DNA from: Mesostigma viride
Lineage: Eukaryota > Streptophyta > Mesostigmatophyceae > Mesostigmatales > Mesostigmataceae
Length of the DNA: 64,000 bases
Assembly (NCBI GenBank): GCA_009746045.1
Contig: RPFO01000079.1
Location: 4,300,271-4,364,270, forward strand
Reading direction: 5' to 3'
Of this stretch, positions 5,293 through 58,548 are shown piece after piece. Positions within the stretch are counted from its first letter, which is position 1; the number at the start of each line of letters is the position of its first letter. The notes beneath the pieces are model-generated. The model was not told the DNA's origin, made no database searches, and worked only from the letters and a program-made list of their open reading frames with translations. The position numbers and the translations under genes are program-made.

Positions 5293-5297
5293 CTGAC

Positions 5298-5367
5298 TAC
5301 TGCGGCCGCCCCTCCCCCTTTGAGTATGCCGCAAGTCATAGATAATACGAGCGTGAGCTCACAAAAT
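5298..5367. repeat. Remainder of R2b, copy 1
   Basis: It continues R2b after the LTR element and its target duplication, and matches the end of R2 in copies 2 and 3. The minisatellite resumes directly afterwards. Confidence 0.85.
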
Positions 5368-11407: not shown

Positions 11408-12301
11408 GCACGCAAGGGGCGAGTGCGCACACACGTACATCCACCGCGCACGCAAGGGGCGAGTGCACACACACGTACATACACCGCGCACGCAAGGGCC
11501 GGCTGCACTCACATGTACATACACCATGCACGCAAGGGGTGGCTGCACACACATGTACACAAACCATGCACGGAAGGGACGGCTGCACACAAACGTACAT
11601 ACACCGCGCACGCAAGGGCCGGCTGCACACACACGTACACACACCATGCACGCAAGGGCCGGCTGCACACACATGCACGTACACACACCATGCACGCAAG
11701 GGGCGGCTGCACACACATGTACACACACCATGCACGCAAGGGGCGGCTGCACACACACGTACACACACCGCGCACGTAGATCCACCGCGCACGCAAGGGA
11801 CGGCTACCCACACACGTACATCCACTGCGCACGCACGGGGCGACTGCACACACATGTACATACACCATGCACGCAAGGGGCGGCTGCACACACACGTACA
11901 TACACCATGCACACAAGGGGCGAGTGCAAACACATGTACATACACCATGCACGCAAGGGCCGGCATGCACAGAAACGTACATACAACGCGCACGCCCGGG
12001 GCAACTGCACTCACATGTACACACACCGCGCACACAAGGGGCGGCTGCACACACATGTACATCCACCGCGCACGCAAGGGGCGGCTGCACACACACGTAC
12101 ATACACCGCGCACGCAAGGGGCGAGTGCAAACACATGTACATACACCGCCCACGCAAGGGGCAACTGCCCACACATGTACATGCACTGCGCACGCAAGGG
12201 GCAGCTGCTGCACTCACACGTACATACACCGCGCACGCAAGGGACGGCTGCACTCACATGTACACACACCATGCACGCAAGGGGCGGCTGCACACACATA
12301 T
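11408..12301. repeat. 40-bp minisatellite array, short block
   Basis: About 22 units. The start matches the start of the 5368-9283 array, and the end is interrupted differently (GCACACACATAT) before R1 begins again. A few units carry small indels, for example an extra CTG in GCAGCTGCTGCAC near 12205. Confidence 0.9.
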
Positions 12302-14420
12302 CCAATCATTGCTTTATCCCATTGGAGTGAGGGGCTGCCAGAAGAACCAGATTTTTTACATATAAGTGATAAGCCCACGTCAAGGCCGTAGCCAATCTGA
12401 GACTCTAGACTAACTAGGCCTCCCGACAGGTGGCTAGGACATCACATTACCAGGGCCAACTCACCTGGGCCAGTCATGAGGACCTGGACTTGTAATACCC
12501 TCAAGCAGCGAGGGAGGGCGGGTGGGAGCTGCAAAGAGGCCTAATTGTGGCAGTACCACAACCCTAAGTAGTCGGACCGCCCTGGGGTGGCGCGTGCCAG
12601 CCCACTGACCAAAAGGCCAGTGGCACCGTGACGCGCGCCAGCCCACTGACCAAAAAGGCCAGTGGTGCCGTGGCGCGCGCCAGCCCACTGACCAAAAGGC
12701 CAGTGGCGCCGCGCCACCCCCGGTCCACACTACCCCCCCCTCACTTCTAGTCGGACTGACTACTGCGGCCGCCCCTCCCCCTTTGAGTATGCCGCAAGTC
12801 ATAGATAATACGAGCGTGAGCTCACAAAATCCAATCATTGCTTTATCCCATTGGAGTGAGGGGCTGCCAGAAGAACCAGATTTATTACATATAAGTGATA
12901 AGCCCACGTCAAGGCCGTAGCCAATCTGAGACTCTAGACTAACTAGGCCACCCGACAGGTGGCTAGGACATCACATTACCAGGGCCAACTCACCTGGGCC
13001 AGTCATGAGGACCTGGACTTGTAATACCCCACACCCCCAACCTGGCCCTCGGCCGCAGGCTGTCGCGTGACCCCGCCTCCCGTTGCCCCCCGTGTCCCCT
13101 GCCGCTACCAGCGGCTCCATCAGCCTAGCCAGGCGGCAATACAACGGGGGGAGCTAATAGTCTTCCTGAGCAGGATGATTCATCCCCAGGCCCAGCACAC
13201 ATCCCCTCACCCCAAAAGGTGCAGCTCGTCGAGGGTAAAGACACGCCGGATAAAACACAACCCCGCGGGCCCGCCACACAGGTGGGTCCTTACACGTCCC
13301 CCCCTCGTGGGGGGCGGGGAAAACGCAAAGGCAGAGCGGAGCCCGCAGCCTTACCGCGGGCGAAGCGGAGCCTTTGCGTTTTCCACGCCCCCCGCGAGGG
13401 GAAAAATTTTTTGGAAACCTGCCAACCCGTGAGGGGTTTTCCACGCACCCTCCCCCGCACCCAAGCTGCGTCCTTGGATTCCCCCTCCGCCTGTACGCCA
13501 TGCCCCGTCATCCCGTTTTTATGTTTTTGCACCATGGAAGCAGACCAACGATGTAACATAGCAGTAGCCGGGTGCCCGTTAAGGCACCGGACCCTACCCT
13601 CTCGTCTGCAGCACGAGGCTCCTCCTCCTCCATGCGTTGGGTAAAATTCTGCCCTTATATACTGCATGGACACTTCCCCCAACAATTCGTCACCTCGCCA
13701 TCCCCCGCACCTCCCCTTCTGGCCCACGCCGGCCGGAGGGAATACGCCAGGCGAAATGAGTTTCAGGTTTCGGCAGCTTGGACCACGCAATACTGTTTTA
13801 CAGTGATTCCTGCACCATCTCACGATTTTTACCACCCGCCTGCACTATTCCACAGCTCCCATCGACTGTGGCCTGGCCTGCCCAAATCATCTCGTGGCAG
13901 GAGATGATGTTCCATAGTGTCGGTCGGCGCCCAAATAATGCAGTGGAAATCGAGTCCTGTACTTCGAAAAACAGGGGCCCCGCCACCTTCCCCCCTCGGC
14001 GGCCAAAAATTTAAATCACTCTGGGCCCTCCCGAATAAACGGGAAGGCTGGTAGCCATCGACTAATTTGGGCTTGTGCCGCCATGGCCAGCCGCCACCGA
14101 ATTTCGATGGTCGCGACAGCTGCAAAGAGGCCTAATTGTGGCAGTACCACAACCCTAAGTAGTCGGACCGCCCTGTGGTGGCGCGTGCCAGCCCACTGAC
14201 CAAAAGGCCAGTGGCACCGTGACGCGCGCCAGCCCACTGACCAAAAAGGCCAGTGGTGCCGTGGCGCGCGCCAGCCCACTGACCAAAAGGCCAGTGGCGC
14301 CGCGCCACCCCCGGTCCACACTACCCCCCCCCTCACTTCTAGTCGGACTGACTACTGCGGCCGCCCCTCCCCCTTTGAGTATGCCGCAAGTCATAGATAA
14401 TACGAGCGTGAGCTCACAAA
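12302..14420. repeat. Composite repeat copy 3 (R1a-R2a-R1b-U-R2b)
   Basis: Matches copy 2 at an offset of 3018 bp: R1a 12302-12499, R2a 12527-12830, R1b 12831-13028, U 13029-14117 and R2b 14118-14420. It carries more point differences than copies 1 and 2 share with each other, including a short deletion near 13530 (GCATGCACC reduced to GCACC). Confidence 0.88.
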
Positions 14421-25908: not shown

Positions 25909-28452
25909 ATGCCTCTAAGCACTACGTGGGGGAGAGTGAGGTCAGCACGCAGACGCCAGCGTGCAACTCGCCGCCGCCGGACCTTCACTCTACAACACAA
26001 GGTGATTACGTGGTTGAATTGGCTATGGCACGGGGGGGCAGACCCTCCGCCTAAATCTGGAGGCGCGTGCTCCAGAGGAACGGCGGAGGCCCTGAAAAGG
26101 GTCAAGAAGCACTGCGAGTGGTACAGTCGCCGCGTAACCGGCGTTGCGACAGGCCCCGCAGAAGGAAGTGATCTAATCTATGGGAAATGTAATAAGTATG
26201 AACAACTTGTGGCGGAGCGGGTGAGTCTGCCGAAGCGCGAGGTGGCAGGAAAGGCGAAGCTGCTGGATTTGCTGGCGCTACGACCTAGTTGGCGAGAGGT
26301 GTACGCGAGCGAAGCCAACTGCATCAAGCCGGAGGTGGCTGCCAGTGCGAGGTATTGGAATGTACCTGCCCCCAGCCGAGGGTGCACCATGGCGGAGTGG
26401 GGCAAGTTGATGGGGAGGGCAGCGGACGTGGGGATGGTGGAGTTCCGAGAGACGCGGCCAAAGTGGGTAGACGGATGTTTTGGGGTGGCCAAAGGAGTGG
26501 GGGAGTTAAGGCTCATTGTGAATAAGAAGTTGGGGAACGCACTGTGGGTGGACCCCCCTAAGACGGTGTTACCCCACCTGGGCATATACTCGGAGGTCTA
26601 TATCAAGGGTCGGTGCTACACGGCCAAGAGCGATCTGGTCTCGTATTACTATACCATCCAAGTGCCGGAGTGGTGGTGGGATTATCAAGGGCTACCTGAT
26701 GTGTGGTCCACCGATGTCGGGCTGCCGGGGCGGCGGAGGAGGGTGTGGCCAGTGCTGAAAGTGCTGGCCATGGGGCACTCCCACGCTGTAGCGCTAGGGG
26801 AAGCCATCCATGAGATGGTCCTCTATGCCACGGGCGCTTTGGATCCTAGACGGCAGGTGAACCGCCTCACAAGTGTAGGGGAGCTGACCGTGCTTCGGAA
26901 TGCATGGGGTAACCCAACCGCCCTAGCCATCGAGTACAAGGAGGAGAGCACGAGGGAGATGCAAATCGACCTTGAGGACCCCCCTGCCCCTATGGTATCC
27001 ATCACTATTGATGACCTGGTGGTCAGCAATGGGCGCACGTGCGAGGCGGTGAATCGCTTAATCGCGAGTGCTATTGAAGACGGGTACGCGCCTAACAACC
27101 TTGTGCCCTCCAAGGACAAGACGATCATGGCTAGCCCGGAGGGGGAGGACGAGCTAGAAGCTCTGGGTGTTGTTCACCGGCGGGATGGGGTGTTGGAGCC
27201 GACAGCTAAGCAGCTCACCCTTGTGGTTGCGCACACTCGTGTACTCCTCGAGAGGGGACGCGCTACCGCTGAGGCGCTGGCGGCCGTCGTGGGCCGGTGG
27301 GTGTGGCTGCAGATGCTCAGCCGCACTTGCTTGTCCATATGGCAGCAGAGTTTTAAGTTCATCAACCTCAAGGGGTGGGGCCAGCGAACGCGACCTTTGT
27401 GGCAAGGTGTGCGCGATGAGCTCGAGTGTGCCATGGCGTTGGCCCCCATGCTCCGTGTGGACCGGGGGGCTGCCCTGGCTCCGGTGGTGGTGGCCTCGGA
27501 TGCGTCTAGTTTTGGGCAGGGGGTTGTCTACGCTGAGATGGCCCCAGCTGAGGTGACGGAATTAGCTCGGGCCCGGGAGGTGCGGGGTTACCCAACCCTC
27601 CTCACCCCAGGTGAGGCCATGTATGCCGGGCCTAGACCCTTGACCAAGGCCGCGGAAAAAGCCATCATCCACGGGCGATGGCGCGTCGGGATCAAGAGTC
27701 GCTGGCGCGATTCGACCATGCACATCAACGAGAAGGAAGTGCGGGCCGCTGTGAAGGGGGTGGAGCGCTCGGCCCGGAACCTCGGAACATGGGGTAAGCG
27801 GGTGGTGAGGTTAGTGGACTCCACTGCCGCTTTGGGCTGCTTGGCTAAAGGGCGTTCCTCTTCTTACCGGTTAAACAAGCAATGCCGCCGGTTGTGCGCT
27901 CTTACGTTGGTCACCGGCAGCCGCTCACAATGGGTCTGGACGCCAAGTGAGCTTCAGCCTGCGGATGGGCCTTCGCGGGGGCTTTCCATGGCTGCCTCGG
28001 TGGCCGGGTGGGTCCGCGATTTGACTCGCGAGGGTGTTCATCCCAATCCCGGGCCTCGGCTTGGCGCTAGCTACTTGACCCTTCTTGAGGGCAAGGTGAA
28101 GCCGGCTACTTTGATGGTTTACCATCGGGGTCTTAGGTCCTTTTTCGCATGGTGGGCGAGCCGGCGGGGTCGGGTTGGCAGCTTGTTGCGCGGCTTGACG
28201 ATAGAGGAATACTATTGCGAGTATGTCGCTTGGGCGCACTCACGGTGTTACAGCCGCCAGTTGTGTGTCAATGCGCTTATGGGCCTGAATTTGTACTTCC
28301 CCCGGGAGGTGCGGGATTGGGCCTTGGCACGAAGTGTTTTGGCTGGCTGGCGCACGTTGGCACCCCCTCGTGCCCCCCCCCCATTCCATGGGAGGCTGCG
28401 TTTGCGCTTGCTTGTACTATGGTGCTCCAGCGGCAGCCTCGTGCGGCTATGA
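25909..28452 (+). CDS. Reverse transcriptase-RNase H ORF2, running into the recombinase N-domain
   Basis: RT copies the element RNA, and RNase H removes it from the hybrid. RT motif A is KSDLVSYYYTIQV, motif B is LAMGHSHAVALGEAI, and motif C is TIDDLVV with its two Asp codons at 27010-27015. Motif C lacks the usual aromatic residue of Y/F-X-D-D. RNase H follows with VVVASDASSFGQG, then INEKEV and LVDSTAALGCL. The last 140 residues (from about VHPNPGPR) form a helical DNA-binding region expected at the front of a tyrosine recombinase. The frame is open from 25471, but I start at ATG 25909, after the ORF1 stop, to avoid overlap. It leaves frame at the C run 28373-28382. Confidence 0.88.
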   Translation: MPLSTTWGRVRSARRRQRATRRRRTFTLQHKVITWLNWLWHGGADPPPKSGGACSRGTAEALKRVKKHCEWYSRRVTGVATGPAEGSDLIYGKCNKYEQLVAERVSLPKREVAGKAKLLDLLALRPSWREVYASEANCIKPEVAASARYWNVPAPSRGCTMAEWGKLMGRAADVGMVEFRETRPKWVDGCFGVAKGVGELRLIVNKKLGNALWVDPPKTVLPHLGIYSEVYIKGRCYTAKSDLVSYYYTIQVPEWWWDYQGLPDVWSTDVGLPGRRRRVWPVLKVLAMGHSHAVALGEAIHEMVLYATGALDPRRQVNRLTSVGELTVLRNAWGNPTALAIEYKEESTREMQIDLEDPPAPMVSITIDDLVVSNGRTCEAVNRLIASAIEDGYAPNNLVPSKDKTIMASPEGEDELEALGVVHRRDGVLEPTAKQLTLVVAHTRVLLERGRATAEALAAVVGRWVWLQMLSRTCLSIWQQSFKFINLKGWGQRTRPLWQGVRDELECAMALAPMLRVDRGAALAPVVVASDASSFGQGVVYAEMAPAEVTELARAREVRGYPTLLTPGEAMYAGPRPLTKAAEKAIIHGRWRVGIKSRWRDSTMHINEKEVRAAVKGVERSARNLGTWGKRVVRLVDSTAALGCLAKGRSSSYRLNKQCRRLCALTLVTGSRSQWVWTPSELQPADGPSRGLSMAASVAGWVRDLTREGVHPNPGPRLGASYLTLLEGKVKPATLMVYHRGLRSFFAWWASRRGRVGSLLRGLTIEEYYCEYVAWAHSRCYSRQLCVNALMGLNLYFPREVRDWALARSVLAGWRTLAPPRAPPPFHGRLRLRLLVLWCSSGSLVRL

Positions 28453-28985
28453 TGGTCATCGTTATTTTCCAACAATACCTGCGGGTATCGGAGGCGCTCA
28501 ACCTGTTGGTCGGCCATGTGCGCTTGCAGCCTGATGTTCGGTTGCGGGGTTCGCAGCGGGGCGCCTTGTTGTTGATGTCAGCTAAGACGGCTAAGGGGGA
28601 GGTGCAGTCTGTGGTGATCGAGGATGTCATGACTGAGACCCTCTTGCGGGCTTGTATGCGTGGCAAGGCGGCCTGGGAGCGGGTGTTCCCTTACGATTAT
28701 GCCCAGTTCAGCCGGGTTTGGCATCAGGCCACGCAAGCTTTGGGGGTCGACACGGTGTTTACCATTCACGGGCTGCGGCATGGGGGGGCTACCTATGATT
28801 TTTTGCGGCAGCGCAGCATGGCTGATATTCAGCATCGGGGTCGCTGGCGCAGCAGCAAAACTGTCGCCCACTATGTGGGATTGCACCGGAGCTTGGCCCT
28901 CACCCTTCCTGACGCCCTGGTTCGGGCTATCGCCGCCTGCCCCCCGCGCATTTGGCGGAGCGTCTTTTCTCTGCCTTCCTCTTAA
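28149..28985 (+). CDS. Tyrosine recombinase catalytic domain (frame-shifted from ORF2)
   Basis: This enzyme would integrate circular element DNA by strand exchange through a Tyr, which explains the missing target duplication. Catalytic residues visible are Arg in YLRVSEAL (codon 28482), His and Arg in HGLRHGGAT (28767 and 28776), a second His in HRGRW, and Tyr in AHYVGL (28872). Only the part after the ten-C run (28373-28382) is meaningful; the first 75 or so codons overlap ORF2 in the wrong frame. The N-terminal domain is in the ORF2 frame, so full-length protein needs a one-base shift. Mutation, sequencing error in the C run, or slippage are all possible. Confidence 0.85.
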   Translation: MVGEPAGSGWQLVARLDDRGILLRVCRLGALTVLQPPVVCQCAYGPEFVLPPGGAGLGLGTKCFGWLAHVGTPSCPPPIPWEAAFALACTMVLQRQPRAAMMVIVIFQQYLRVSEALNLLVGHVRLQPDVRLRGSQRGALLLMSAKTAKGEVQSVVIEDVMTETLLRACMRGKAAWERVFPYDYAQFSRVWHQATQALGVDTVFTIHGLRHGGATYDFLRQRSMADIQHRGRWRSSKTVAHYVGLHRSLALTLPDALVRAIAACPPRIWRSVFSLPSS

Positions 28986-35320: not shown

Positions 35321-38300
35321 AGACACGTGACTGCGTCACGTGAGCATAAGTCCTCAGTGGGAGGGGAACATGGGATGGAATGGATGGTATAAGCTATCTA
35401 GGTCCTAGTTACAGGGGTGTGGGCACCGCGGCCCGAATCGCTATGAATGCCATACTTGGTCACACGCGGAGCCCCCACAGGCTTGGGGGTGGTCTCCTTC
35501 ATCACTACTTGCCATCTATCCTTGCGCACCATCTGCCTCCATATTACAGACAAACCAGGAGGCTGCCCGGGGGTGAGCCCGTCACGTCTAGTGTAGCACA
35601 TGTCCATGCCGAGTCTATCACGAAAAGTCCACGGGTGGCGGCCCTGCCGCGCGCGGCCGGGGGCACGCCAGGTGAGGACATATCGCCCAGGCTGGGCGGG
35701 CTTGGTGCCAGCTAGTCTATCTGATGTATCTACCTGATCTGTGCGGGCCAGGTGCCCGGCTAGGCCCAGGCGCCTGTGCCTAATAATGTGGGAAACATAG
35801 GGCAAATCAGCGTACAAATCCTCATTACTAATGTGCAAACCAAAGGGGATGTTAAGGGCCTTGCGCAGCATCTTGGTGACGGCGCCGTCGAGTCGTTGCT
35901 CCAGCTCCTGCATCAGTGTCCACGTCTCGGCGCCGTAGGTCAGGATCGTCAGAATGACGACCTTGAAGAGGTCACGCTTGACGATCCGGGGTAGGGCGGG
36001 GTTGCTCCACCAGCGGCGGTGGTCATGGAGGTGCGCCCACGCCATGCCGATCCGTGTCGTCATGTCGTCCTCGCAGTCAGGAAGCCAACTGCCGAGCAGC
36101 TTGAAGCGGCCTAGGAAGTAGGGTAGTTGACCTCGGCATCGTCTAAGAGGCGGAGTGTGGGTGGGGGCCCTGCCATGCCGAGGGCCAGGGCCTCCGTTTT
36201 GGGGCTAATTTCTAGACCAACCGCCCGAGCCTCGAGCGCCAGGCAGTCCAGCCAAAGTTGGGCAGACTCCGGCTTCTCGATGAGCGTGATGTCGTCGGCA
36301 TAAATGAGGTCAGCTAGTAAATTCTGCTTGTTAGTCGGCCCCCCTTCCCCAAGCTCGTTCGTGATCGCTAGGCCAGGGGCACGGCCTGCAATGCTAGCAA
36401 AGCGAGCACGTGCCTGGCGCATAACATAATCCACTACAATAATAAACAGGTACGGCGACAGGACGCAACCCTGCCAGACGCCGGTCTGCAGTGGGCAGGG
36501 CGGGGTTATGCCGTGCTGAGTGCGCACCGAAGTGGTGGACCCCTCATACAGCGTGCGGATGACGGTAATCAGGGGAGTGGGGACGCGAGCGCGAGCAAGT
36601 ACAGCCCATAGAGCGTCCCAGAGGACAGAATCAAAAGCCTTGATGAAGTCGACGAAGATCAGGATGGCGGGAAACTCACCAGGTTGCAGGAGAGCGATTT
36701 CCTCGAAGAGGCGACGCGCGACGAAGATGGCCATGACGGTGTTGCGCCCAGGACGGAAGCCCATTTGACTTTCCCCAAGGTGACAGTCGAGAGCAGAACG
36801 AAGGCGGTTGAGGATCATGCGCATGAACAACTTAAGTGCGGCGCTCTGGATGCAGACTCCTCTGTAGTTGGCGGGGTCGTCAGGGGAACCTTTGTTTTTG
36901 TACAGCATAATACGGTAGCTGTGCTGCCACTCAGGAATCGGCGGCGCGTCGGCAAGCAGGATCCGGTTGCAGACGTCAAGCAGGAACCCCGTGAGCGCCG
37001 TCAGCTTAATCACCGGGGCTGGGAGCTGGTCAGGTCCAACGGCAGCATAGAAGCGGAGTTGCTTGGCGGCGGTGCTCAGCTCGAGCTCGGTGAACGGCGG
37101 GAGCTCGTTGGGGTGGGCCAGGGGTTCCGTCAGGGCTGGGTACGTGTAGTCCTGCTCAGCGGCGGGCGGCGTGGGCGGCGCAGGGACGTCCGCCGGTGCT
37201 ACTGCCAGGCGTGCGGCCGCCAGAGGGCCAAGCGGCGGAGGCGGCGGGGGGGCGCCGAGCAGCCGGGACTGGGAGGAATACCACTGGTTGAGCTGCTGCT
37301 GCGGTGAGCCAGAGAGCGTCCGCGGCGCCGGCTGCGCGCCGCCGGCGGGCCGTTGGGCGTGACGCAGGCGGGTCCAGGCGTACTTGCCGTGCTGGTCCTT
37401 GAGGTGGGCGAAGTACTCGCGGACATGAAGGTCCTCCTGCTCCTTGGTCGCCTGCCGGATGGCCGAGTGGTAATCGGCTTTGAGGCGGGCGTAGCGGGCG
37501 GGGTCGCGGTTGTCGCGCAGGGCTTGCCGGGCCTGGATGACGGCGGGGAGCCGGTGCAGGCTGGTGAAGCGGGGCGGGCGGCGGGGGGCAGTAGGGCCCC
37601 GGCCGCGGGCAGCTTGTCAGCGAGGTGCCGAAGGGCCGATGCCGGGCCGGCAGCGAACAGCTGGGCGTGGCTGGCCGGGATGTCCAGCGCGTCGACGAAC
37701 GCCTCTGCGGCGCGCTTGTGGGCGCGTTTTTCAGGGAAGTCCTCCAGAGCGTCGTCAGATTTCTCGAGCAACTGAAGTGTGCGCAAATCAGGTGGTGCCA
37801 CGTGCTTACGAAAGGGCGAGGGGAATCGCAGGCGGATGCGGGCGGTGACGATGCGATGATCGGAGCGCACCAGGGGGATCACATGCGAGCGAGCAGCTAG
37901 TACAGATCCTTGATGACGCTTGCGCATTACAACATAGTCAATGCAGCGTTCAGTGCCAGTTGGCGAGGTGTGTGTGACCAAAGCATCTGGACTATGTGGA
38001 AAGCGGGTGTTGGCAGTGACCAAATCGCATGTCGTAAGCAAATCAGCAAAAAGTTCGGTGTTGGCATTGGAGACCGTACCGTTGGGGGCGTGCTGACATC
38101 CGCCAGTACCCGGTGGTAGCGTGGCGTTGGCGTCCAGCAGCAGAGCGAGGTAGTTGCGACCAGGGATGCCGTTCGCCAGGTTCTCCAGCGCTGCAAAGAA
38201 GTCCTTGCGGTCTTGTTCTGGGTGGCCGGAGTGGGGTGCGTAACCAACGCCCACCGTCAGGGCGTAGGTCGAGTGGCCCTCCATCGAATGAAAAGTGGCC

Positions 38301-45600: not shown

Positions 45601-47590
45601 GCGCCTGTACTGTGTTGCGACCTGAACGGAAGCCGTGCTGAGTCTCGCTGAGGTGACCGTCCAGGGCCGTGCGCCTGCAGGCGGTTCAGGATGAGCCGCA
45701 TAAGAAGCTTGAGGGGGGCACTTTGAATGCACACCCCTCTGTAGTTGCCGGGGTCGGCAGGCGACCCCTTGTTCTTGTACAGCATCGTGCGAAAACTGTG
45801 TTGCCAGGCCGCTGGAGGTGGCTGCGACGACAGCAGAAGGCGGTTGCAGATGTCCCGGAAGAGCAGCATAACACCTGTGTCCTCGAATTCGGCTGCAAGT
45901 TTTACAACTGCGGCCGGAATCTCGTCAGAGCCGGTGGCTGCGTCATAACGCAGCTAGGCGCTGGACCGCCTCCGTGACCTCGCGGGAGGTGAAAGGAGGC
46001 ATGTCAGACGGGTCGCCAAGTGGGCCGACCAGCGGGGGGACTAGGTAGTCCGCCGCTGATCTAGGCGGGGCAGGGGGCCCAGCGGGGCCGGCCAGGGCGG
46101 CCGGGCGGGCGGCGGCGGCTGGGAGCAGGGGTGGGGGCGGCGCAGCTGTCCCCACGACCTCGGCCGTGGCCGTGGCCCAGGTACGAAGCCGCTTGGCTGG
46201 GGCGCCGGGGACGTCGTGGCGGTGGGGCCGGCCGAGGCCGTCCGGGTGCCCGAGGCGCTTGTACCAGAACCAGGCCCCCTTGCCGTCGTGCTTCTGCTGG
46301 CAGCTGTGCAGGTACTTGACCATCTGCTGAGCATCTGCCTTCTCAGCCTGCTCGTAGGCGGCCCTCAGAGCTGCTTGCAGCCCAGGTTTGGCGATCGGAT
46401 CTCTGTTGCGGCGGAGCATCTGCCTGGCGGCGACCACTGTCGGTGCGTGACGGTGGACAGCAAGCTGCCGACGCGGAGGCAAGGTGGGGAGGGTGCGGGC
46501 AGCCAGGCGATACTTGGCGGCGACACCACGGAGGATCACTGAGATATCCCCCGGCGGCGGAATGGCGTGTAACTGCTGTCGGCTGCCCCCGGCGTCGAAT
46601 ACGGCCAGGAAATCATCCCTGTGCGACATAGCGGCCTGCTCTGCTGCTGACATCTTGTCGGCATCCTTCAGCACAATCCGGAGCACTTTTCAGATCTGGC
46701 TGAGGTGCCAGCTGTCGCGACGGTTTCACCCCAGGAAACCGCAATCTGATGCGAGCGAGCACGAGACGATGATCAGATTCCACCGTGCTGACAGAATCTT
46801 GCAGGACGCGAGCATCGACAACTGAGGGGCGCTGAGCCCGACGTACGCAGACATAATCAAGGCACACCACCCGATCCGACGGCCCAAAAAAGGTGGCCAG
46901 CTGCTCAGCGGGGCGTGCGAAAGAAGCATTGCATGCAACCAGCGCAGATTCTGCCAGCAGATTCGCAAATAAAGGCGTGTTACCGTTGGCTGTCGTGTTG
47001 GTTGGGGAATACTGAGCGCCCCCAGTGCCAACTGGCAGCGTGGCGTTGGCGTCGAGCAGCATAACCAGGAAGTGCCGAGCTGGGATGTTGGCCTCCTCCT
47101 CCTTGAGAGCGTCGAAGAAGGCCTGACGTTCCGCCTGAGCTCGACCCGCATGTGGTGCATATCCCACGATAACGGTTAGCGTGTGGTGTGAATGGCCCTC
47201 AGTGGCTGAAAAAGTGGCCACTAGCACACGCGGGGACCGCAGCACGATGGACTGGAGCTGCTCTGATGCTGCCGGCGAGCACAAGAGGCCCACACCACCT
47301 TGGCCCGGCGCGTCGCCGCCACCATAGTGGAACCGCCAGCCTGCACGCAGGTCGTCGACCAGCAGACCGTTGACCGCGTGCTGAGGGTCAACGGTGCGTC
47401 GGTGCTCCTGGACTCCAAGAACAGCGATCTTGTTGTCGGCGCACAGGGCGATCAGCTCGTCGACGCGTTGGCGTGCTGGGGTGCCGCCGCTCGTAGAAGG
47501 ATCTGCAGGGAGGGTGCGCACGTTAAAACTTGCAATACCAAGAATGGGCCGTTGCCCTATTAGCGGGGGGGTGGGGGTGGGGGTGGGGGT
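42612..47590 (-). pseudogene. LINE B ORF2: endonuclease-reverse transcriptase, broken
   Basis: The endonuclease is in 47590-46690: FNVRTLPADP, VLGVQEHRR, LLDANATLP, VCLDYV and VESDHRLV. The linker is in the frame 46686-45943 after a shift near 46690. The RT fingers (MLYKNKGSPADPGNYRGVC) are at about 45790. Motif A, VDFIKAFDSVFW, is in another frame at about 45500. After the insertion come motif B GVWQGCVLSPYLF (43621) and motif C YADDTTLF (near 43440). The C-terminal part LTYGAETWTL (near 43090) has a further shift. The end reads KRPRVQSRGRHAR. At least four frame changes plus the insertion make it inactive. Confidence 0.86.
43669..45378. mobile_element. TTAA-flanked TIR element 2 (piggyBac-like, non-autonomous)
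   Basis: TTAA at 43665-43668 and 45379-45382, with ends ACCGTG and CACGGT. Near the ends are hairpins: CCAACTGTCCGCTA with AGCGGACAGTTGG on the left, and CCAACTGCCCGCTA with GGGCAGTTGG on the right. No transposase is seen; a 68-codon plus frame (44434-44640) is hydrophobic but unsupported. Removing the element joins the two halves of LINE B ORF2. Confidence 0.78.
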
Positions 47591-47645
47591 GGAGAAGGGT
47601 AGTGCTGGAGGTGGGGGTGGGGGTGGGGGGGGGGGGAGGGGGAGG
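47566..47645. repeat. G-rich (GGGGGT)n tract at the ORF2 start of LINE B
   Basis: Encodes a Pro-rich stretch in antisense and makes the ORF2 start uncertain. LINE A has a similar tract near 38695-38740. Confidence 0.75.
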
Positions 47646-47935
47646 GTGGCGATTGGGGTTAATGCTTGTCAACGCATGGAGGCTTTCTTTCAGGACGGAT
47701 ATGCGTCGTCTCCGTCCTGGCTGGGGTCGCCGGCGTGTCGACTGGGCCTCATCCCGCTCAAGGCGGGCTAGGAGGCGTGTAAGGCTGGTAAATTGGCGGG
47801 AAGGTTGACCGTGGCGTGCCTGGCGACCTTGCATCCTGATCATGCTCGCACGGTGCGACATGATGATGGAAAGGGGCTTGTTTATAAAGGCTGTGCCCAA
47901 AGCCTATTGTACCGCGAGGCCGCGAGGGTGTGCCC

Positions 47936-49276
47936 TTACGGGGCGCCATCCATACCCGGGACGTGCGTAGACGATGATGACGCAGCTGGGGCGGGCCTGG
48001 TACGGCCCGACTTGTGCCGCTTGTTAGGAGCCTGCGCCTCCGTGCGCTGTCCGTTGATGAATAGCACGGGGGTGTCGTGGACGAGGCGGACGTAGACCTT
48101 CTGGCCGTCGTGCCTGGCCTTGATCGCCACGTCGCTGCCCAGCAGACCATTCTTGATGACTAGCTGGGCCGGTGAGAGGAGGTCGTCGAGGCTCGGCGCG
48201 TTTCTCCCGCCTAGGAGCTTGCGGGCCTGGAGTACCTTCACCTTGCTGGCCACATTCGCAAAGGTCACCCGCATGGGGCCAGGCTGGCCCGCCATCCAAG
48301 CTGCCGACTCAATGCGGATGCGTTCGTTGCCCAGTTGCAGCCGGCCCACGATGAGGCTGTGGTACAGGCGTTGCGCTAGCATCAGGTCCGTTTCAGGCTG
48401 CTGCGCGACCTGAAAATACCGGACCACTATACTGCGTGAGCGCAGGTCCTCCTCGATAGCAGTCTTGTGGGCTGCAGCCCCCCTGCGTGCGGCATCCTCC
48501 ATCAGGTTGGCAATGTCTGTCTGTTTGACCATGTTAGCGTAGCTGGTGGCCGGTGCGGGAGCGGCTGGTTGGGGCGGGCTGGTCAGGGCGGCCTTGACCT
48601 CGGCAATGCTGGAGCGGAGCTCGGCAGTGTCTTGACGGATAGCGGTGGACAAGGTGCCGAGTTGGGCAGCCATGTCTGCGACTTTCTTATTGAGCTTGTG
48701 CAGGTCTGCTGCTTCCGGGGAAGCATCGGGGGTGTTGGCGGTGCCGTGATCGGCGTCCTCGAAGGCGGCAAAGAGTGCCCGGAGGCAAGGGGCCTGCACG
48801 TGACTCAAGAAAACAGAAAGTCGAAGCTGTGGCTCGTCCAAGTCGGCGATGTCGTTCACTGGAATGGTCCCGCAAGACGCGTAAGGAAAATATATCTCCT
48901 TGCCGGTGTCGTGCAGGTGGCGCAGGATAGCCTGCGCCTGCTCGGCGGTAAGCGAAAAGAACTGCTGCTCGTCGACAACCTGGCCAGGCATGAAGGATGC
49001 TGGGTCGAACTCAGCGTCGTTAGCGTCGTCGTCGTCGTCGTCGATGGCGTCGTCAATGGGGGTGTCTTTGGAAGACGATGGCGGGGGGATCTGGCTCTCC
49101 ATCTCGTCGGCTGGGGCGTAGCAAACCCGCTTGGAGGAGGCGGTAATGGCGGCCGCGTTTGCCTGGGGCCGCGTCGCAATGGTTTCCGCATCTGCAATCA
49201 GTTGCGTAATCGTGTTGAGCGCTGAAGCCTCCCTCTCGGAGAGAGAAGGGGAGGCGGTTGACGGAGTTTCTGCCAT
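47936..49276 (-). CDS. LINE B ORF1 protein (intact)
   Basis: 446 residues from MAETPSTASP to VPGMDGAP. LINE ORF1 proteins form trimers that coat the element RNA. An acidic run (DDDDDDANDAE) lies near residues 78-90. A likely coiled coil (LNKKVADMAAQLGTLSTAI and following heptads) lies around 190-230. An RRM-like and C-terminal region runs from about 270 to 420 (RSIVVRYFQVAQQ, MRVTFANVASKVKVLQARK, VFINGQRTE). There is no zinc knuckle. The frame is clean although ORF2 is broken. The ORF1 remnants at 30.4-32.6 kb follow the same domain order but differ in sequence. Confidence 0.82.
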   Translation of the reverse strand: MAETPSTASPSLSEREASALNTITQLIADAETIATRPQANAAAITASSKRVCYAPADEMESQIPPPSSSKDTPIDDAIDDDDDDANDAEFDPASFMPGQVVDEQQFFSLTAEQAQAILRHLHDTGKEIYFPYASCGTIPVNDIADLDEPQLRLSVFLSHVQAPCLRALFAAFEDADHGTANTPDASPEAADLHKLNKKVADMAAQLGTLSTAIRQDTAELRSSIAEVKAALTSPPQPAAPAPATSYANMVKQTDIANLMEDAARRGAAAHKTAIEEDLRSRSIVVRYFQVAQQPETDLMLAQRLYHSLIVGRLQLGNERIRIESAAWMAGQPGPMRVTFANVASKVKVLQARKLLGGRNAPSLDDLLSPAQLVIKNGLLGSDVAIKARHDGQKVYVRLVHDTPVLFINGQRTEAQAPNKRHKSGRTRPAPAASSSSTHVPGMDGAP

Positions 49277-49330
49277 AGCTGGTTCCGGAAAATTACGAAC
49301 CCTGCCTGTGCTGCGTGTTATGATATTGCG

Positions 49331-49708: not shown

Positions 49709-52700
49709 CTACGAGATTATGCAGCAAGTGGCTGCCGGCTTAGCTGCCATTTGTCCAGGAATGCCGTCCTCGATCATCTTGTTGAGGCGCTTCACGATCT
49801 CGGCACAGCTGGGCCTCTGCATGCCAGAAACCAGTCAAGCACACAGCCATGCATTCTGTCAGGGCGAGCGGATAGTCGTGTCAGTCTGTACCAAACTCAC
49901 ATTGTCCCATCGGCGATTCCCGCATGCCACCTACACCATTGGGCAGGACCGTCCTGCCCAATGATGAGGGTGGGCCACCCTCTGGAATCAGCATTATAGC
50001 CAATAAACTGATCAGCAGAGTCCGCAAGCATATACCTGAGAAGTGAAGCTGCCTACCAGGGAGCGGATATCTCAGTGGGTCGGAATCGTCTGGCACTGTC
50101 AAAGCGACCTCACGCTGGTATTTGCCCCCTAACTCTCGCAGTGTCCCCTTACTCTGCATAATCTATCTGGAATTAAATTCTATCTGGCAGCAGCTCTCTT
50201 CCCACTCGACATGCTCCCAAGCTCAAGAGGGAAAACGATCAACCCCATAGTATTAATATTCTGTGTAAAAATTGGATCTCAAACAGGTAATTGCCAAAGT
50301 GCAGTTTTGCATCAACAAATATAATCTGATTGCTATAATGGCATGACTTGCAACAGCAACCCTTCACTATCTATTACTGTTAAGGGTTTAGGGAGCACTA
50401 ACCCCTAAACCCTAAACCCTAAACAGCAACCTTTCACCATCTATTACTGTTTAGGGTTTAGGGAGCACTAACCCCTAACCCCTAACCCCTAACCCCTAAA
50501 CAGCAACCCTTCACCATCTATTACTGTTTAGGGTTTAGGGAGCATTAACCCCTAACCCCTAAACCCTAAAGAGCAACCCTTCACCATCTATTACTGTTTA
50601 GGGTTTAGGGAGCATTAACCCCTAAACCCTAAACCCTAAACAGCAACCCTTCACCATCTATTACTGTTTTGGGTTTAGGGAGCATTAAGGGGACGTGGCG
50701 CGCCGAATATTTTCCGCGCCAAAAAATTCGCGGTACCGTCCGTACGGTGTATAATGTGTGCCCGGACCGCTCAACCCTCGCGGAAGTGGCCATGGCGGCA
50801 TGCCTTTATGCAATATTAATCGATATGGCACGTAAACAGCTAGAAAAAATGCTTGAATTTCGCAGAAGATTAGTTGATGACCTCATTGCGTGGCGGAAAG
50901 TTTACGGTTTGCAATATCGCTAATTTCTCGAACGGCTACGGGCGCGGGGGTCCAGGATATAATTTCTCTTGCGGATCATGAAATTTAATGCAGGTTTACG
51001 GCAGCTATTGTGAGGCAACGTAGGCTCTAAAGAGCGATTATGAAGCTAACTTAATGGTGTTGTCGAGTTTGAGCCGAAGCTTCCCGGTTTCTTTTACATT
51101 TCCGGCATTCAAGGTAAGAACCTACGCAGGCCTGCGCATGTCGCCTTCGACGTATTCACGGAAGGCGCACCTTCCTTGTTCGCCTGATCAATGGATGATG
51201 TCTTTTATTGTTGGAGCTTGCGTGCCAGTTTATGCATGAAACATTTCCACGCAGGCAGGTGCATTAACGTCGGCCTTTCGCCTTTTTTTCGGGCAGTTTC
51301 CCTGCAGGAAGCGCTCCATTTCTTTCGGTTGCATCGTCAGATTCCTAGCTATTTCGTACAATTTCGTGTAGTTTGTGGCTGGCATGCTAAATGCGCCGAG
51401 GTCAAGTTGTTGGTAATGTGTTGACATTTGTTTTCCATAATCCTTTGGACGTGACCTTGCTCAGACGCTTTGTTATGTGCCGGATCTGACACGCCTGTTT
51501 TAGAACGACATCCGGCATGTGCCTAGAGGCTAACAAGCTGGCATCAGCTTCTTAGCAAATTGCCCTATTGGAAAGGAAGGTGAGAGTGGTTCTTTTGCTG
51601 GCCATACTGCATGAGTGGCATTGCATTAGATAGGTGTTTCCATTGCTTTCCTTGAGCTATAACCATTAAGACTTCCCTGCTATGTGTGCAGCAAGGCAAG
51701 CTGGATAGGATGTGAATGCTTGGCATACAACATGTATGATTTGCTGCCAAGTTTGCAGGCTGCAGTTGCCTCTATTGCTTGGGCAGTCTTTCTAAGGTTT
51801 TTACACGTATACTTGCTGAGTTCTTGGCATAAATTTACATGGTAACCTTGGGCTGAGCTTAGTGTATGCTCTCTTGGTGCGTGTATGCCTAGCGATGGTG
51901 TTGCTATGCGCACGCTGGCAAGGCTGGCCATGCTGAGGGCAGGGGAGGGCAGATGAGGTGCCTAGCCTTTTCTTATGTTGTGTGATCGAGTTGGGCATGT
52001 TTTTTGGCTTCTTGGATGGAAAACATGATGCCTAGGTGGCCTTATACACAGAAAAACCTCATTTAGCGTATGTTCAGGTTTTAGCACGCCAAACGCAATA
52101 ACTTGAGCTAGACTTGTCGGAATGACCTGGGACTTGGACCACTGCTGTCCCCCTGTTAGCCGGATTTTCGCTACATTTTGTTGCCTAATCTGAAGTGTTT
52201 ATGACATGTTTATTCCCAATGTCCGGTAAAAAAAGGGTACTTTTGCGGGGAAATTAATAACTGTTCAAGGTTTAGTCATTTTCATGATGTAAATAGCTCA
52301 GCAAGCTACAAACTCAGGGAACTATAGACGCTACATTTTTTTTTGCCAACAAATGAGTGCATGGGCTGGGGCATACATAGCCCTAATTAGCGTCTTTTTC
52401 TATTTATAGCGCTATATTGGCGTATATGTGGGGGTAGTACCCCCAACAAGTGCATGGACAACTCACTAGAGATGTTATTTAGTGCCCCCAATCATAATTT
52501 AGCATGGTGCAACTGCTATTCAAGTGATATTAGCATGGGTCAAGTTTTAAGGTTTTTGGGGTGCCACCTCCCCTTAACCCCTAAACCCTTAACCCTAAAC
52601 AGCAACCCTTCACCATCTATTACTGTTGTGCCATCACTCCTGGTAGGGTCACCATCGGGTGCCATGATATCGCAACCAAAAAGTGTGGAATTTACTGTCA

Positions 52701-55700
52701 AGGATGGCCATTTTGTAGTGATTAGCTGACCGGTCCCTGGCTTACCTCCTTGGGGTCTTGTGCCCACGCGGATGCCAGCAGTTGCTTGAGATCCTCGGGC
52801 CACTGTTTGGGCAGTCGCGGCCGGATCCCCTTGAGCGCATGCCCCGCCGCCACGTCCTCTGGTGATATGAAGTCGCGGCTGTACACCGTCTCGTTGGTGA
52901 GCATCTCGTAGAAGATGATGGACCAGCTGGCACATGCCACCGCCATCACAACCGCACCAATGTCACAACCAGCCCCCCGCCACCCCCACCCAAGGTGTCA
53001 TGATTCCCCCCCCCCCCCCCCCCCCCCGGACCATTACCAGCGCCGCCACCACCATGCCATCATATGATTGGGCGGGGGAATGCACAGCACACACAGAAGA
53101 TGCCAGCACGATGCTAAACGATTGTTAGCCGCGGGCTCTAAATGTTAGCGATGCTCTTCCTCTTGGTGCAGAGGACAGCAAAAATGCTTCCTTCATCCCT
53201 TCATCTCTCGACCCCTCCCTCCCGTTCTTCTTCCCTTTCCGAGGATGCACTGAGTACACAACCGCCTTGCACCCACTTCTCCCACGTGCGTCCTGCAGGG
53301 CTGGTTGTACCAGGACGAGCGAACGCATGCTCGATGCCACGCACACCTGCCTGCCTCCTTTTGTGTGTGTGAGTGAGTGTGCGTGTGTGTGTGTGTGTGC
53401 GTGTTGTGCACAAGGTTCTGCTATCACGGGCTCATAAGGAACGACCCACAAGGATAAGCACCTAGATTGCGTCACATGGGTACCAACCAAGTTAGCACTT
53501 ATCTAAGGCTGGACGATGAAACCACAGGACCGGCCTGCTACGCCCAACCTTTGCTGCATCCACGCACGCTGCCACTCATGCACGTACACCTGCCCGCCTC
53601 GTTTGCTGCATCCCTGCATGCCAGGCGGGCGACTTCTGACTCTGCCACTAGAACTGGGCCGAGTACCCCTTTATGGAACGGGCAGCCTTCGTGAAGCCTA
53701 GCCGCAGATGGTTGGCAGCATTAGCGGGCGCGATGCCACTAGCAGTGCTTACCTCTAGGTGCTGCCAACCCATGCATTACAGATGGTGAACTTCTAATAT
53801 TACGCCGTTGACTGACGTAGAACCAAGCCGCTAAATTACCAATAATCTGTCTCCCCCCTCATGCCTCCCCCCCCCCCAAAAAAAAAAAAAATAAAAAAAT
53901 CCAAGTGAGTTAGATGCCATCTGATGACTTAGCGACCGAGAAAACTCGTCCAACAGGGCACACAGACATCAAGACTTCAGGGAAATCACCAACCCATCAT
54001 CCACCTCGAAGAAAGATAATCCATTCCTGAGGAAAGGCATCGGTGTGATGCGTTCAAAGAGAAACTTGTCCACGTACGAGAAGATGTGATCATCGTCATG
54101 CACTCCATGTATGAGACCATGCATTCCATGTTTGCGAGTATGCCATCTACACAGGAAAAAAGAAATAATCCACTTCAGTTGCGGAGACAAAACAACCAAC
54201 GTACGAAAAGATGTCAACTTTCTCGTCGTAGTTCTCGTGCTTGTACACCTCCGGCGCCATGTACCTGCGGGGCACGCATCCGCAGCATGCCGATGGCATG
54301 ACCGAGGTGTCAAAACGATCGCGTGGGCCCCATCTACGGCGCAGCAGCTTGCGCCTGCTTTGATACTAGCAGCAGTTTTTGATGCAGACATATACGGCCA
54401 GCAATCCATGCAGAAAAAACCCAGACAAGCCCAACCGGTTATGATTATGACTGTCGTTGCACGATTACCGAGGTTGATAATGGTTAGGAGCCGTCACTAT
54501 TGGTGGCGATGAGCATGATTGCCATTTATCCATGAGAATCGATAGGGGTAAGTGCCCAGGCTACGGGGTGCATGTCTTCGCACACTAGGTGCATGTTCAT
54601 ATGCGGCTGGGTGGAAGTATAGGTGGGCGCTCACGCACTGATGGGAAAAACAGGTAACAACGCACATGGCTCTTTAGCGATGACAGCAAGAGGACAGGCC
54701 AGTACGGTCTACCTGCACAAGTAAGGGATTCATGGTCAAGAATCGAGGCTGTGTCGGGTGCGCTGCATGCATGCATGCACTCACCGGTAGGACCCCGTCT
54801 CCCCCGTCATCTTATACACGGCCTTCTCCTTGGCTTTGCTTGCGAGCTTGCTGCATGGGTGGGAGGGGCGGAAAGGGGGAGGGGGGGCAGGGCGGGGCGG
54901 GGCGGTGGCGGAGCGGGGCGCACAACACAGAAAGGTGCTATTGTCAGCGCGGCTGGCAGGTTTGACTGGCAGCTGCACACCATGATCGGGGGGTCATTCT
55001 CAGACATCCCGTTGCAATGCCGCAACTTGCCTTGACAGCCGAGACTGGCAGACCTGGCCGAGGGCCCTACCCAGCACACTAGACGCGTGGCAATATGCAT
55101 GGCAGGGATGTGAACCTTGGATAGCACGCGCTACCACACGGGAGGGAATGCACATGCAGGCGGTGTGCAGGTAAGGTGCATGGGCTAGCGGCCCAGGTCG
55201 GGGGGGGGGGGGGGGGGGGCAGGGAAATATGGTGCCCAGGCCAGGGATCAAGGGCAGACGCACGGAGGGGCCACAGGACAAGGACGGAGCCTATGTGCGG
55301 GGGGTTGGGGGGGGGGAGGACGGAGGACAGCAGGGAATCTGAGGCAGGGGAGGGCTGCACCCCGATACCCTGCAGGAAACGTCTCCCACGTGAAGAACGC
55401 AGCCGAACGCAGCCGAACGCAGCTGAACGCAGCTGCCTTACAGCGGCCGCTGTGTACCATTGCCCGGGTGTGTTGCATGCTGATACCTCAACCATGCGTG
55501 CTACCCAATTATTGGACAGAGTTGCGACTACATCGGTCGAACGTGGTTACTAGGCTTATTGGAGAGGCCCCAGCTGCATGGGGACGTGTGCCACACATGA
55601 ACTTGCATGATTGCCCACACACATAGGCACATTCCAAGGCCACACGAATGCGGCGCATCCCAGCGTGCCAATCCACCACACCCATGCGCCACCTGCCGCC

Positions 55701-56938
55701 CTCAGTGCACTGCATGGTCATGCATGTCCCACATGCCCCCAACGTAAGCCTGGGCTGAGTCCCTCAACATCCCAACGTGCTGCGTAACATGACTGAAACA
55801 ACTAGACGTGCGTGTGGGATACACAAGGACTATGCTGCCAGTGACACCCGTCCATGCAGGCCCATGGTGACCCGCTTCCTGAGCAGTAGGCGGACAAACT
55901 TTACCTGGGATGCCGCCCAATCAATTACAGAATGCATGCACAACGTCCAAGAATGCATCTCGGGCGGGCGCGTGCACGACAGAGGCTTGATGAACGCACC
56001 CCATCCCAAAGTCGGTGATCTTGGCGGTGCCCGTGGCGTCCAGCAGAACATTGTCCGGCTTCATGTCGCGGTGGATGACCGTCGGGCTCACCCCGTGCAG
56101 GTACTCCAGCCCCTTTGCGATGTCCCGCCCAATCACAAACGCATCCGCCAGCGCCACCTTCTTCTTCTGGATAAGGGAGTTGATGGTGCCGGTGGACAGA
56201 AGCTCCTGGCAGATAAACTGGAGCGACTGGCCTGTGGCCGCGTCGACATAGTCCCCGACGCCGAGGTACGCGCAGATGTGCGGGTGCTTGAGCTTACGCA
56301 TGAGCGCCGCCTCGTTGGCGAAATCCTGCATGTCGGCCTGGCTTGAGAGGACCTCGGGCCGCAGCTTCTTGACCGCCATCAACTGGCCGCTCGTATTGTG
56401 CTTGTATTCCTCCACTGAGGCAAACGCACCCTCTGAATGGGTGCAGGGCGAGGGGGACGCCCAGTCAGGAGGGACAACCGGCCGGCGAGGTCACCGCATA
56501 AGGGCCATGTCAATATCAATGGCTCGTCAGGACCGAGTCTGCACCGAGAGGAGCATGAAAATGGCATCATCCTGAAACCCACAGATAATTCCAATCCAGG
56601 CCGGCTCGCAAAGATCTTGTCATTAACCGACAGTGAGAATTAGCAGGGATTCGTGAGTTTGGATATCACTCACCTCCCAAATGCCTAACAAACGTCATGT
56701 CGTCCAGGGAGATGTAATCGTTGGGAACCATGTCGCGCAGCGTGCGGAAACTTTTGGATGCCTTGTCAGCCATCATGACTCTGGACGACGCGTCTTTAAA
56801 CAAAGATAACCCCCGCTTAGCTACACCATCGACGGAGAGCCTGATTTGGTTTTCCGACACTCCCTGATCCATGTTTTCCTGCTTGATTACTTTCACTTCA
56901 TCAGCAACGGATGTGCCGCTGTTATCGAGAACTGTCAT
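49709..56938 (-). CDS. Raf-like protein kinase with a C-terminal CaaX motif (6 exons)
   Basis: A Ser/Thr-type kinase, 370 residues. Exons (minus strand): 56938-56674, 56432-56000, 54850-54785, 54264-54205, 52926-52746, 49816-49709. All introns are GT-AG and the summed coding length, 1113 nt, keeps frame. Domain landmarks: glycine loop LGEGAFASV (87-95), Lys110 in AVKKL, Glu129, HRDMKPDN (209-216), DFG (229-231), activation segment MTGETGSYRYMAPE (247-260), and RPSCAEIVKRL (336-346) closing the domain. These match plant Raf/TKL-type kinases. The N-terminal 85 residues have no recognised domain. The protein ends TCCIIS: Cys367-Ile-Ile-Ser is a CaaX box, preceded by another Cys. This predicts farnesylation and membrane location (inference). 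Introns of 1.1-2.9 kb hold repeats and a transposon. Confidence 0.87.
50354..50688. repeat. Telomere-like tandem array inside kinase intron 5
   Basis: Four to five units of about 62-66 bp. Each carries CAGCAACCCTTCACCATC, TATTACTG, then TTTAGGGTTTAGGG, a short spacer AGCATTAA and CCCTAAACCCTAAA. TTTAGGG therefore appears in both orientations, head to head, and each unit can form a hairpin. It continues at 52574-52627 after the inserted element. Confidence 0.88.
50689..52573. mobile_element. TTAA-flanked TIR element 3 within the telomere-like array
   Basis: TTAA at 50685-50688 and 52574-52577. The ends read GGGGACGTGGC and, in reverse complement, GGGGAGGTGGC (10 of 11). 1885 bp with no transposase recognised. 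A plus frame near 50792-50923 (MARKQLEKMLEFRRRL) is helical and charged but has no assigned family. Removal rejoins the array spacer AGCATTAA with CCCCTAAACC. Confidence 0.75.
52574..52627. repeat. Telomere-like array, right remainder
   Basis: TTAACCCCTAAACCC, then CCTAAACAGCAACCCTTCACC and TATTACTGTT, which is the same unit as 50354-50688. Confidence 0.85.
53006..53027. repeat. Poly(C) run of 22 in kinase intron 4
   Basis: Uninterrupted C run. Length may be unreliable in any assembly. Intron 4 also holds a (GT)n run at 53361-53405 and a C/A-rich run at 53866-53897. Confidence 0.8.
55200..55219. repeat. Poly(G) run of 20 in kinase intron 2
   Basis: Uninterrupted G run. Intron 2 also has a 10-bp tandem repeat of the form ACGCAGCCGA near 55396-55435. 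Confidence 0.8.
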
Positions 56939-58548
56939 TTCCGCTCCTTGATCCGCGATCGGATCGACGCAACAAATGTCGATCGATATTATATTGCAAT
57001 TGCAGTACGTACTCTAATCTAAACACGGCTTACATAAACGCTGTCGCTCGACCACTGAATTTGGTTATTAACGGCCGCATTGACAAAAAAGTGGCGTCAA
57101 TCGAGTAAGTCTTCAGAATGAACTGATCTTACGGACTGTAAACTACGGCCAGCTGCACGCTAGCATCCAGTACAAGTACTACAGCTAGCTGTGGAGCACA
57201 ATTAATAGCGCTACTGAAGAAGAAAACGGTCTTTTGCTGGAGGAATTAGACCACCGCAAGAACCTGGCGGTCGCCATAGCAGGACACGTGCTCCTTCACA
57301 TCAATGATCGCGAGCATAATCATGAGCTGCTCCAGGTCAGGCGCTGCTAATCCATACGGCTGCATGATGTGCACGCGATAATGCTACTAGTTTTTAGTAT
57401 AAATAGCTGCAGTCGAATCCAAGCCAGACAAGGCGCTCGTTGACGACATGCCCGCAGTTATGGCGGTCTTTCGATGCAAAGAAATAAAAGGCTTTCTGTA
57501 CCTAGAACTGCGTTGGGGAATTGATTTAGGCCCCGGCGCTCTGCATTGCCAAACGTGACAGGCGCACGACAGTAGTATCGACAGCCATGAAGATATCACT
57601 TAATTTGCTGGGGCGCGCAGAGGACAAGTAATACAGACTTTACTGGCTACGAAGTGACGTGTCAGAGATCGCGGCCGGCTTTGCGCCATCCGAAAGGGCC
57701 TCGATCAAGAAAGAACATGCTGATGTCAAGTTGGCCACAGAGTTGGCCGTACGAATCCGCAGTGACTGGCATGAATATAACTATCCGATATACTACATAT
57801 CTTCCGGCCCTGGGCCGTTATAGACTCTGCCAATATGCGGCGTGGGATCCAAGTCATCCAACTGACTGACTGACTGACTGGCATGAAGATTCGCCTTCCA
57901 ACGACAATATGGTGGACGAGTTACGATCGTATTTTGCTACGTCTTGGACTAACTGACTGACTGACTTTGCTACGGCGTGTCCAGCAGGACGCCCGCTCAA
58001 AAAACCAAGGGTCAAGGACGGAGGACGGGGATATATCGGAGTTCGGACTGCACCAAGGCCCGGAATCAAAGTTGGCGCCCAAAAGATAAAACAAATATTG
58101 AAAAGATCTTTCATCTCACTAGCCGTCCTGGCACTTTCTTATCTGCTGCCCATGTGCAGCGCGGGATTCAACTAACTACAGTAACTAACTGTCTTATCGC
58201 CACGCGATACAGCACCTCACGTTCGTACAACTCAAATCGCCAAGCGTACAAGCACCATGATGAAACCATGTTTTTCATTTTGCGCGCGCGCGCAAATGAC
58301 AACCATCAAAATCTGCTTTGATGCATGAGAGGACCTGGCGAGAAATGTCAATTTGACAACCAAGGCCTCACCACAGGAAACCTCGGAATGCAAGGCGTGG
58401 ACCTATAAATCCGCATGGAAAGACTGGTTACTGCCACAAGCCTTCCAATCCGTCACAAAGCGTCCCGCTGTTTCGCGTGCGCTTTCCTCACTTTGGGCCT
58501 TCCCCAAGGTTCCAGTTGCATTTCCTTGCCTTGAAACATTGCATAAAG
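56939..58548. other. Divergent intergenic region between the two host genes
   Basis: Holds the promoters of the kinase (minus) and the acidic-protein gene (plus). CTGA tandem repeats occur near 57857-57881 and 57950-57966. An AT-rich TATAATA-like stretch lies on the minus strand about 50 bp upstream of the kinase ATG (56985-56995). No ORF with a domain. Confidence 0.6.
58404..58410 (+). promoter_or_regulatory. Possible TATA box of the acidic-protein gene
   Basis: TATAAAT, 139 bp upstream of the start codon, preceded by GTGGACC. The position would give a 5' UTR of about 110 nt. No experimental support. Confidence 0.45.

Follow-up and report, generated by a model that had tools for sequence, protein, structure and literature searches.

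We found that a kinase gene of the streptophyte alga Mesostigma viride encodes a CaaX prenylation box in its last exon, and that a clade of paralogous kinases in the same genome ends in boxes of the same kind. The gene lies on the minus strand of a stretch of 64,000 nucleotides from contig RPFO01000079.1 (positions 4,300,271 to 4,364,270; "the window" below means this whole stretch, and coordinates are window positions). Six exons, rebuilt from the window sequence, splice to one open frame of 370 codons that ends ...RPSCAEIVKRLNKMIEDGIPGQMAAKPAATCCIIS and a stop. The last eight residues are AATCCIIS; that is, a C-a-a-X sequence, CIIS, occupies the extreme C-terminus, where a CaaX substrate carries it. 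It seems quite likely to us that this kinase, a member of the tyrosine kinase-like (TKL) group, is prenylated on its CaaX box, likely S-acylated beside it and present at a membrane without a partner, and that the same holds across the clade, including a multi-copy cluster of near paralogues. The CaaX end is real, stands on a TKL kinase that looks intact and is common to a clade of paralogues, which makes direct anchoring by lipid the interpretation we favor.

All five introns of the gene are GT...AG (241, 1149, 520, 1278 and 2929 bp), and the exons end in phases 1, 2, 2, 2 and 0. Exon 1 (56674..56938) has the ATG and an N-terminal region of ~80 amino acids that reaches the start of the glycine loop and includes a segment, FRTLRDMV, common to the paralogues. 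Exon 2 (56000..56432) encodes the N-lobe and the catalytic loop (GEGAFASV, MAVKKL, VIHRDMKPDN and DFG), exon 3 (54785..54850) the activation segment KLASKAKEKAVYKMTGETGSYR, and exon 4 (54205..54264) YMAPEVYKHENYDEKVDIFS, with boundaries identical to those in the related genes C1402 and C1670 (related genes are named by their contigs). Exon 5 (52746..52926) runs from WSIIFYEML to WAQDPKE. Exon 6 (49709..49816, stop included) encodes the RPS segment, a linker and the terminal CCIIS, of which the second cysteine and the CaaX box (C367-I-I-S370) occupy 49712..49726. The first ATG comes after an in-frame stop at 57014-57016, and because of this we judge that the short N-terminus is probably complete, barring an upstream exon. 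A sequence-only reading of this DNA had described the same six exons, coordinates, 370 codons and 2.9-kb intron 5, all of which agree with the rebuilt GT-AG model, and it had assigned both the RPS segment and CCIIS to the last exon, as is seen in the translation of 49816-49709.

The junction before the last exon recurs in other genes. Exon 5 ends in phase 0 in the window gene, C1402, C1670 and C1802, and the residues on either side of the junction are DPKE/RPS, DPKK/RPS, DPDK/RPA and REGE/RLP, respectively. Because four genes have this phase-0 junction in common, homology supports exon 6 as the true last exon of the window gene. The intron that precedes it (intron 5; 49817..52745) contains a 70-bp tandem array at 50352-50688 (4.7 copies), the unit of which has telomere-like CCCTAAA/TTTAGGG motifs. 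By eye, a stretch akin to this array is found near 52571-52690, at the other end of the intron.

The encoded protein is an active-looking serine/threonine kinase by sequence, with its catalytic residues present. Pkinase matches residues 83-344 (2.7e-53), and PK_Tyr_Ser-Thr also matches (2.2e-47). In a six-row alignment with relatives, K110 (the catalytic lysine), alpha-C E129, H209-R210-D211, K213, N216, D229 and A258-P259-E260 were invariant. The top single-kinase match among solved structures was TNNI3K (6e-38), followed by CTR1 (1e-32), TAK1, WNK3, RIPK2 and RAF1 (1e-24); a chain labeled EGFR ranked first on summed score, with two matched domains of only 72 bits each. Since TNNI3K, CTR1, TAK1 and RAF1 rank among the best matches, its sequence places the window kinase in the TKL group. 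It is not a RAF, because the Ras-binding and C1 domains were not found: a Pfam scan of the 370-residue protein at 0.001 returned kinase models only, and no Ras-binding, C1 or ankyrin domain. The genome has its own CTR1-type gene at a separate locus, C335 (2e-105 to CTR1). Thus the label "Raf-like" given in the sequence-only reading fits only loosely. The mechanism proposed there, a bypass of the recruitment by Ras on which animal Raf depends, is not supported, since neither domain was found. We know of no Ras-based recruitment of Raf-like kinases in green plants.

The CaaX end is shared with the nearest relatives. We searched the genome (440 Mb in 2243 contigs) with the window protein, and conservation of the motif is judged here among the paralogues of this one genome. 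Near paralogues, 38-55% identical exon by exon, lie on C114, C1391, C1504, C2100, C394 and C2165. All nine of the nearest paralogue loci that have a last exon (L035-L043) end in C-x-C-a-V-M, in the forms CQCVVM, CLCIVM, CLCMVM and CQCTVM. A tenth, partial copy (L065 on C2165), whose match is split across two frames, ends CLCIVM; no last exon was among the matches on C394. Seven distinct last exons are represented among the nine loci, three of which are identical in this exon. The ratio of nonsynonymous to synonymous substitution rates (dN/dS) ranged from 0.11 to 0.53 across the 21 pairings of these seven exons, so the last exon of this cluster is under purifying selection. As a group, the nearest paralogues are present in multiple copies, recent duplicates among them. 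Two of the three identical last exons are on C1504 and one on C2100, and copies on C1391 lie at 1.61-1.81 Mb and at 2.81 Mb.

More divergent kinases have CaaX-like ends as well. A scan of their loci found such ends, in the kinase frame, in C1802 (...KSSSCQCIIS), C1402 (...RGCCTIL) and C1043 (...TRKTSCTVQ). The last exon of C1670, RPAFTDIHPQLLAMRDRGMVAAFPDPRAQDGCCQLM, ends CCQLM and follows an AG acceptor 764 bp past exon 5. We compared the C-termini of six lineages as nine segments cut at the RP motif, and three positions never varied: the initial Arg, a single Leu and the Cys of the CaaX box. The spacing of the last four residues, an aliphatic a2 and an X of S, M, L or Q were kept, and the length of the linker varied. 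In five of the six lineages the cysteines come in pairs, as CC or CxC, and C1043 has a basic stretch ahead of a single cysteine. The paired cysteines suggest a second, reversible lipid in those five lineages. One further gene, C1602, runs off its locus before any stop. C1801 was considered as a possible member of the group and set aside; it aligns poorly and has neither a CaaX-like end nor an R-P-S motif on the sense strand.

One subunit of the enzymes for this modification is encoded in the genome. The alpha subunit shared by the CaaX prenyltransferases farnesyltransferase (FTase) and geranylgeranyltransferase I (GGTase-I) is encoded on C69 (7e-25 against the mammalian protein). A second PPTA gene, on C1107, resembles by eye the alpha subunit of the Rab enzyme. 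Farnesyl is favored when X is S, M or Q. Geranylgeranyl is favored when X is L, according to the part of PMC12197051 drawn on here. Both CIIS, the end of the window protein, and CTIL, the end of C1402, are within the set of tetrapeptides measured for affinity to FTase or GGTase-I (PMC1175975, in the sections cited here), and the same sections describe, ahead of the Cys of prenylation substrates, a linker that is flexible and hydrophilic and some 11 residues long. Read by eye, the window protein has GQMAAKPAATC ahead of its CaaX box.

In the mechanism that we propose, FTase (or GGTase-I) would prenylate the box encoded in the last exon, and the adjacent second cysteine would probably be S-acylated. 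The resulting lipid anchor would hold the kinase at a membrane with no need for a recruiting partner, and this location would control its access to substrates. For the clade as a whole, we infer prenylation, S-acylation, membrane location and an effect on signaling from sequence. Tethering directly to a membrane had been part of the sequence-only reading; a CaaX end on an intact-looking kinase, shared by a clade of paralogues, supports it well as a prediction.

It is possible, although unlikely, that the tail is real and conserved and is not prenylated, its cysteines serving for S-acylation only, for metal or redox chemistry, or for packing against the C-lobe. The paired cysteines of the five lineages would suit S-acylation alone, and the Gln at a1 in C1670 (CCQLM) would be at home in such a tail. 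Against this alternative, the last-four spacing, the aliphatic a2 and the restricted X were kept while the linker changed in length, and both CIIS and CTIL belong to the peptides measured with prenyltransferases.

The CaaX-tailed kinases grouped together in maximum likelihood trees. These were built from kinase domains of this genome together with CTR1, TNNI3K and ZAK (29-row tree), and in the first of them the seven CaaX-tailed rows formed one clade (support 97/95). Eight CaaX rows, now including C1670, were again one clade against 22 others in a 30-row tree (99/95) and against 30 others in a 38-row tree (99/97). For the 38-row tree, eight near relatives were added regardless of their tails (C2133, C1813, C1613, C1668, C1424, C1118, C1205 and C224). 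Each of these was placed outside the CaaX clade, and none had a CaaX-like sense-strand frame within the stretch examined. Because the clade stays whole in the presence of these tail-blind relatives, the bias of our scans toward CaaX ends is offset. The sister of the window gene within this clade is the C114/C1391 cluster (97/94). Every gene of the clade with a readable end carries a CaaX-like end, and by parsimony we infer that the tail is older than the split of the clade.

These trees also bear on the view that the window gene encodes an ordinary, soluble plant Raf-like mitogen-activated protein kinase kinase kinase (MAPKKK) with an unimportant local quirk for a tail. Plant Raf-like MAPKKKs have the signature GTXX(W/Y)MAPE, and the window kinase has GSYRYMAPE, with T replaced by S (C1402 has GTYRYMAPE). 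It is consistent with this view that Pfam returned only general kinase models, and that no CaaX kinase is named in the portions of the plant prenylation reviews used here. A local quirk would not be expected in every clade member with a readable end. In addition, the genome's Raf-like gene of the CTR1 type, C335, which shares the TKL kinase domain (1e-32 between the window kinase and CTR1) and served as a negative control, had no CaaX end in the stretch translated. In the 38-row tree it lay outside the CaaX clade and paired with CTR1 (99/92), and the window gene did not. We give this view little chance of being correct.

The CaaX ends of the clade are more than chance would supply. Of 5066 stop-terminated frames of at least 25 codons, 269 ended in Cxxx and 35 in a CaaX-like sequence, compared to every clade gene with a readable end. 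Three of these 35 were family ends, so the background is slightly too high; overlapping loci were counted twice. That the tails are chance artefacts of the gene models, with the true last exons elsewhere or ending differently, is very improbable: the gene models are known from DNA sequence alone and four of the ends were located through scans for CaaX-like ends, but the phase-0 junction is identical in four genes, the kinase segment and the tail share one exon, the background is low (35/5066), the bearers form one clade (99/97) and the last exon of the cluster is under purifying selection.

We also searched viral and prokaryote contigs with an alignment of the family, and took 31 and the best 80 of 524 loci, respectively. 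These were general kinases, with a top identity of 33% among the matches listed. Of the 111 loci, 93 could be read to a stop beyond the best-matching segment, and none of these 93 ended in Cxxx. Three candidate loci, L079, L084 and L140, match through the last residue of the query and yet have no CaaX end.

Several points weigh against our interpretation. Of the 22 frames with a stop that were read from control kinases of this genome, one had a CaaX-like end (L029, CLAQ); the other 10 of the 32 control rows had no stop inside the locus, and some rows are one gene in two loci. It was scans selecting for CaaX-like ends that revealed those of C1402, C1802, C1043 and C1670, which is a bias, and these ends are taken as true last exons on the basis of frame, acceptor, phase and homology. 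The scan that yielded C1802, C1402 and C1043 gave 31 hits, of which 14 were family ends and 17 were in other frames or positions. For the same reason the last exon of C1670 is no blind prediction. Exons were joined with an alignment script of our own. The trees use chosen rows (29, 30 and 38) from 147 and 112 genome matches, some of them partial, and C1802 is long-branched (1.61). Lastly, DFG is altered in the six-row alignment, to DMA in C1402 (L066 and L072) and to DLG in C1802 (L034). Because of these replacements, C1402 and C1802 are possibly weak or inactive, and part of the CaaX clade may thus consist of weak or inactive kinases, with the anchor kept in possible pseudokinases.

The closest parallel to a directly anchored TKL kinase is a laboratory construct in which cRaf, or its kinase domain, is joined to the K-Ras tail. 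Adding the CaaX tail of K-Ras to cRaf brings it to the plasma membrane with no need for Ras, in the part of PMC6375958 relied on here. Like that construct, the window kinase carries a CaaX tail behind a TKL kinase domain, and Ras-free recruitment to membrane would be expected of it. Unlike the construct, it is natural and has another tail that lacks the polybasic stretch of K-Ras, and no Raf regulatory domains were found in it. By analogy, the CaaX clade looks like a natural form of the arrangement of cRaf plus K-Ras tail.

Other relatives and analogues are less close. The activation segment GETGSYRYMAPEV, present in both the window kinase and C1043, resembles that of plant integrin-linked kinases. 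Those kinases, placed with the Raf-like C group in the part of the review used here (PMC5376563), are Raf-like TKL kinases as well; in contrast, they have ankyrin repeats, and the 370-residue window protein matches none. Neither "prenyl" nor "CAAX" occurs in that review's main text. Several protein kinases are among prenylated proteins (PMC10393820, in the portion cited), and the farnesylation of LKB1 is in the reference list of PMC1175975. Among the titles and abstract openings listed in the literature searched, we found no family of CaaX-tailed TKL kinases. Prenylated kinases of animals include GRK1, GRK7, LKB1 and phosphorylase kinase subunits, none of which is known as a TKL kinase. They have a C-terminal CaaX anchor as the window kinase does, presumably of separate evolutionary origin.

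The window has frames like those of mobile elements besides the kinase gene. A pair of frames resembling a long interspersed element (LINE) lies at 46613-49330 (-), on the kinase strand, and consists of 464 codons with no Pfam match and then an endonuclease frame (Exo_endo_phos, 3.6e-8); the first open frame of the pair starts some 380 bp past the stop codon of the kinase, on its downstream side. A reverse-transcriptase frame is at 36111-37616 (RVT_1, 3.4e-25). A frame of the tyrosine recombinase family, at 28137-28985 (+) (Phage_integrase, 1e-6), adjoins a frame of 1119 codons that has no Pfam match at 0.001, and it may be part of a DIRS-like or other recombinase-bearing element. Long repeat-like stretches, with several frames open on both strands (one of 1265 codons), occupy 5224-9347 and 11186-12391. 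Elsewhere in the genome, C1107 has 22 consecutive matches to PK_Tyr_Ser-Thr at about 0.65-1.31 Mb, 19 of them within open frames of 1039-1265 codons.

Taken further, these genes may represent an early-branching streptophyte TKL lineage with an ancestral, built-in CaaX anchor in place of a partner that recruits it, its members tuned to different enzymes (FTase for X = S, M or Q and GGTase-I for L) and mostly equipped, by their paired cysteine, with a double lipid switch. We regard the chances of this broader proposal as about even. If it holds, the clade would be a natural, evolutionarily maintained family of Raf-CAAX-like kinases. Fusing a CaaX box to Raf is a standard laboratory route to a TKL kinase that is independent of a recruiter, and here such an arrangement has seemingly been kept across a whole clade. 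The clade would thus offer a testable case of kinases that gained an autonomous membrane address, one spread over tails of both farnesyl and geranylgeranyl type.

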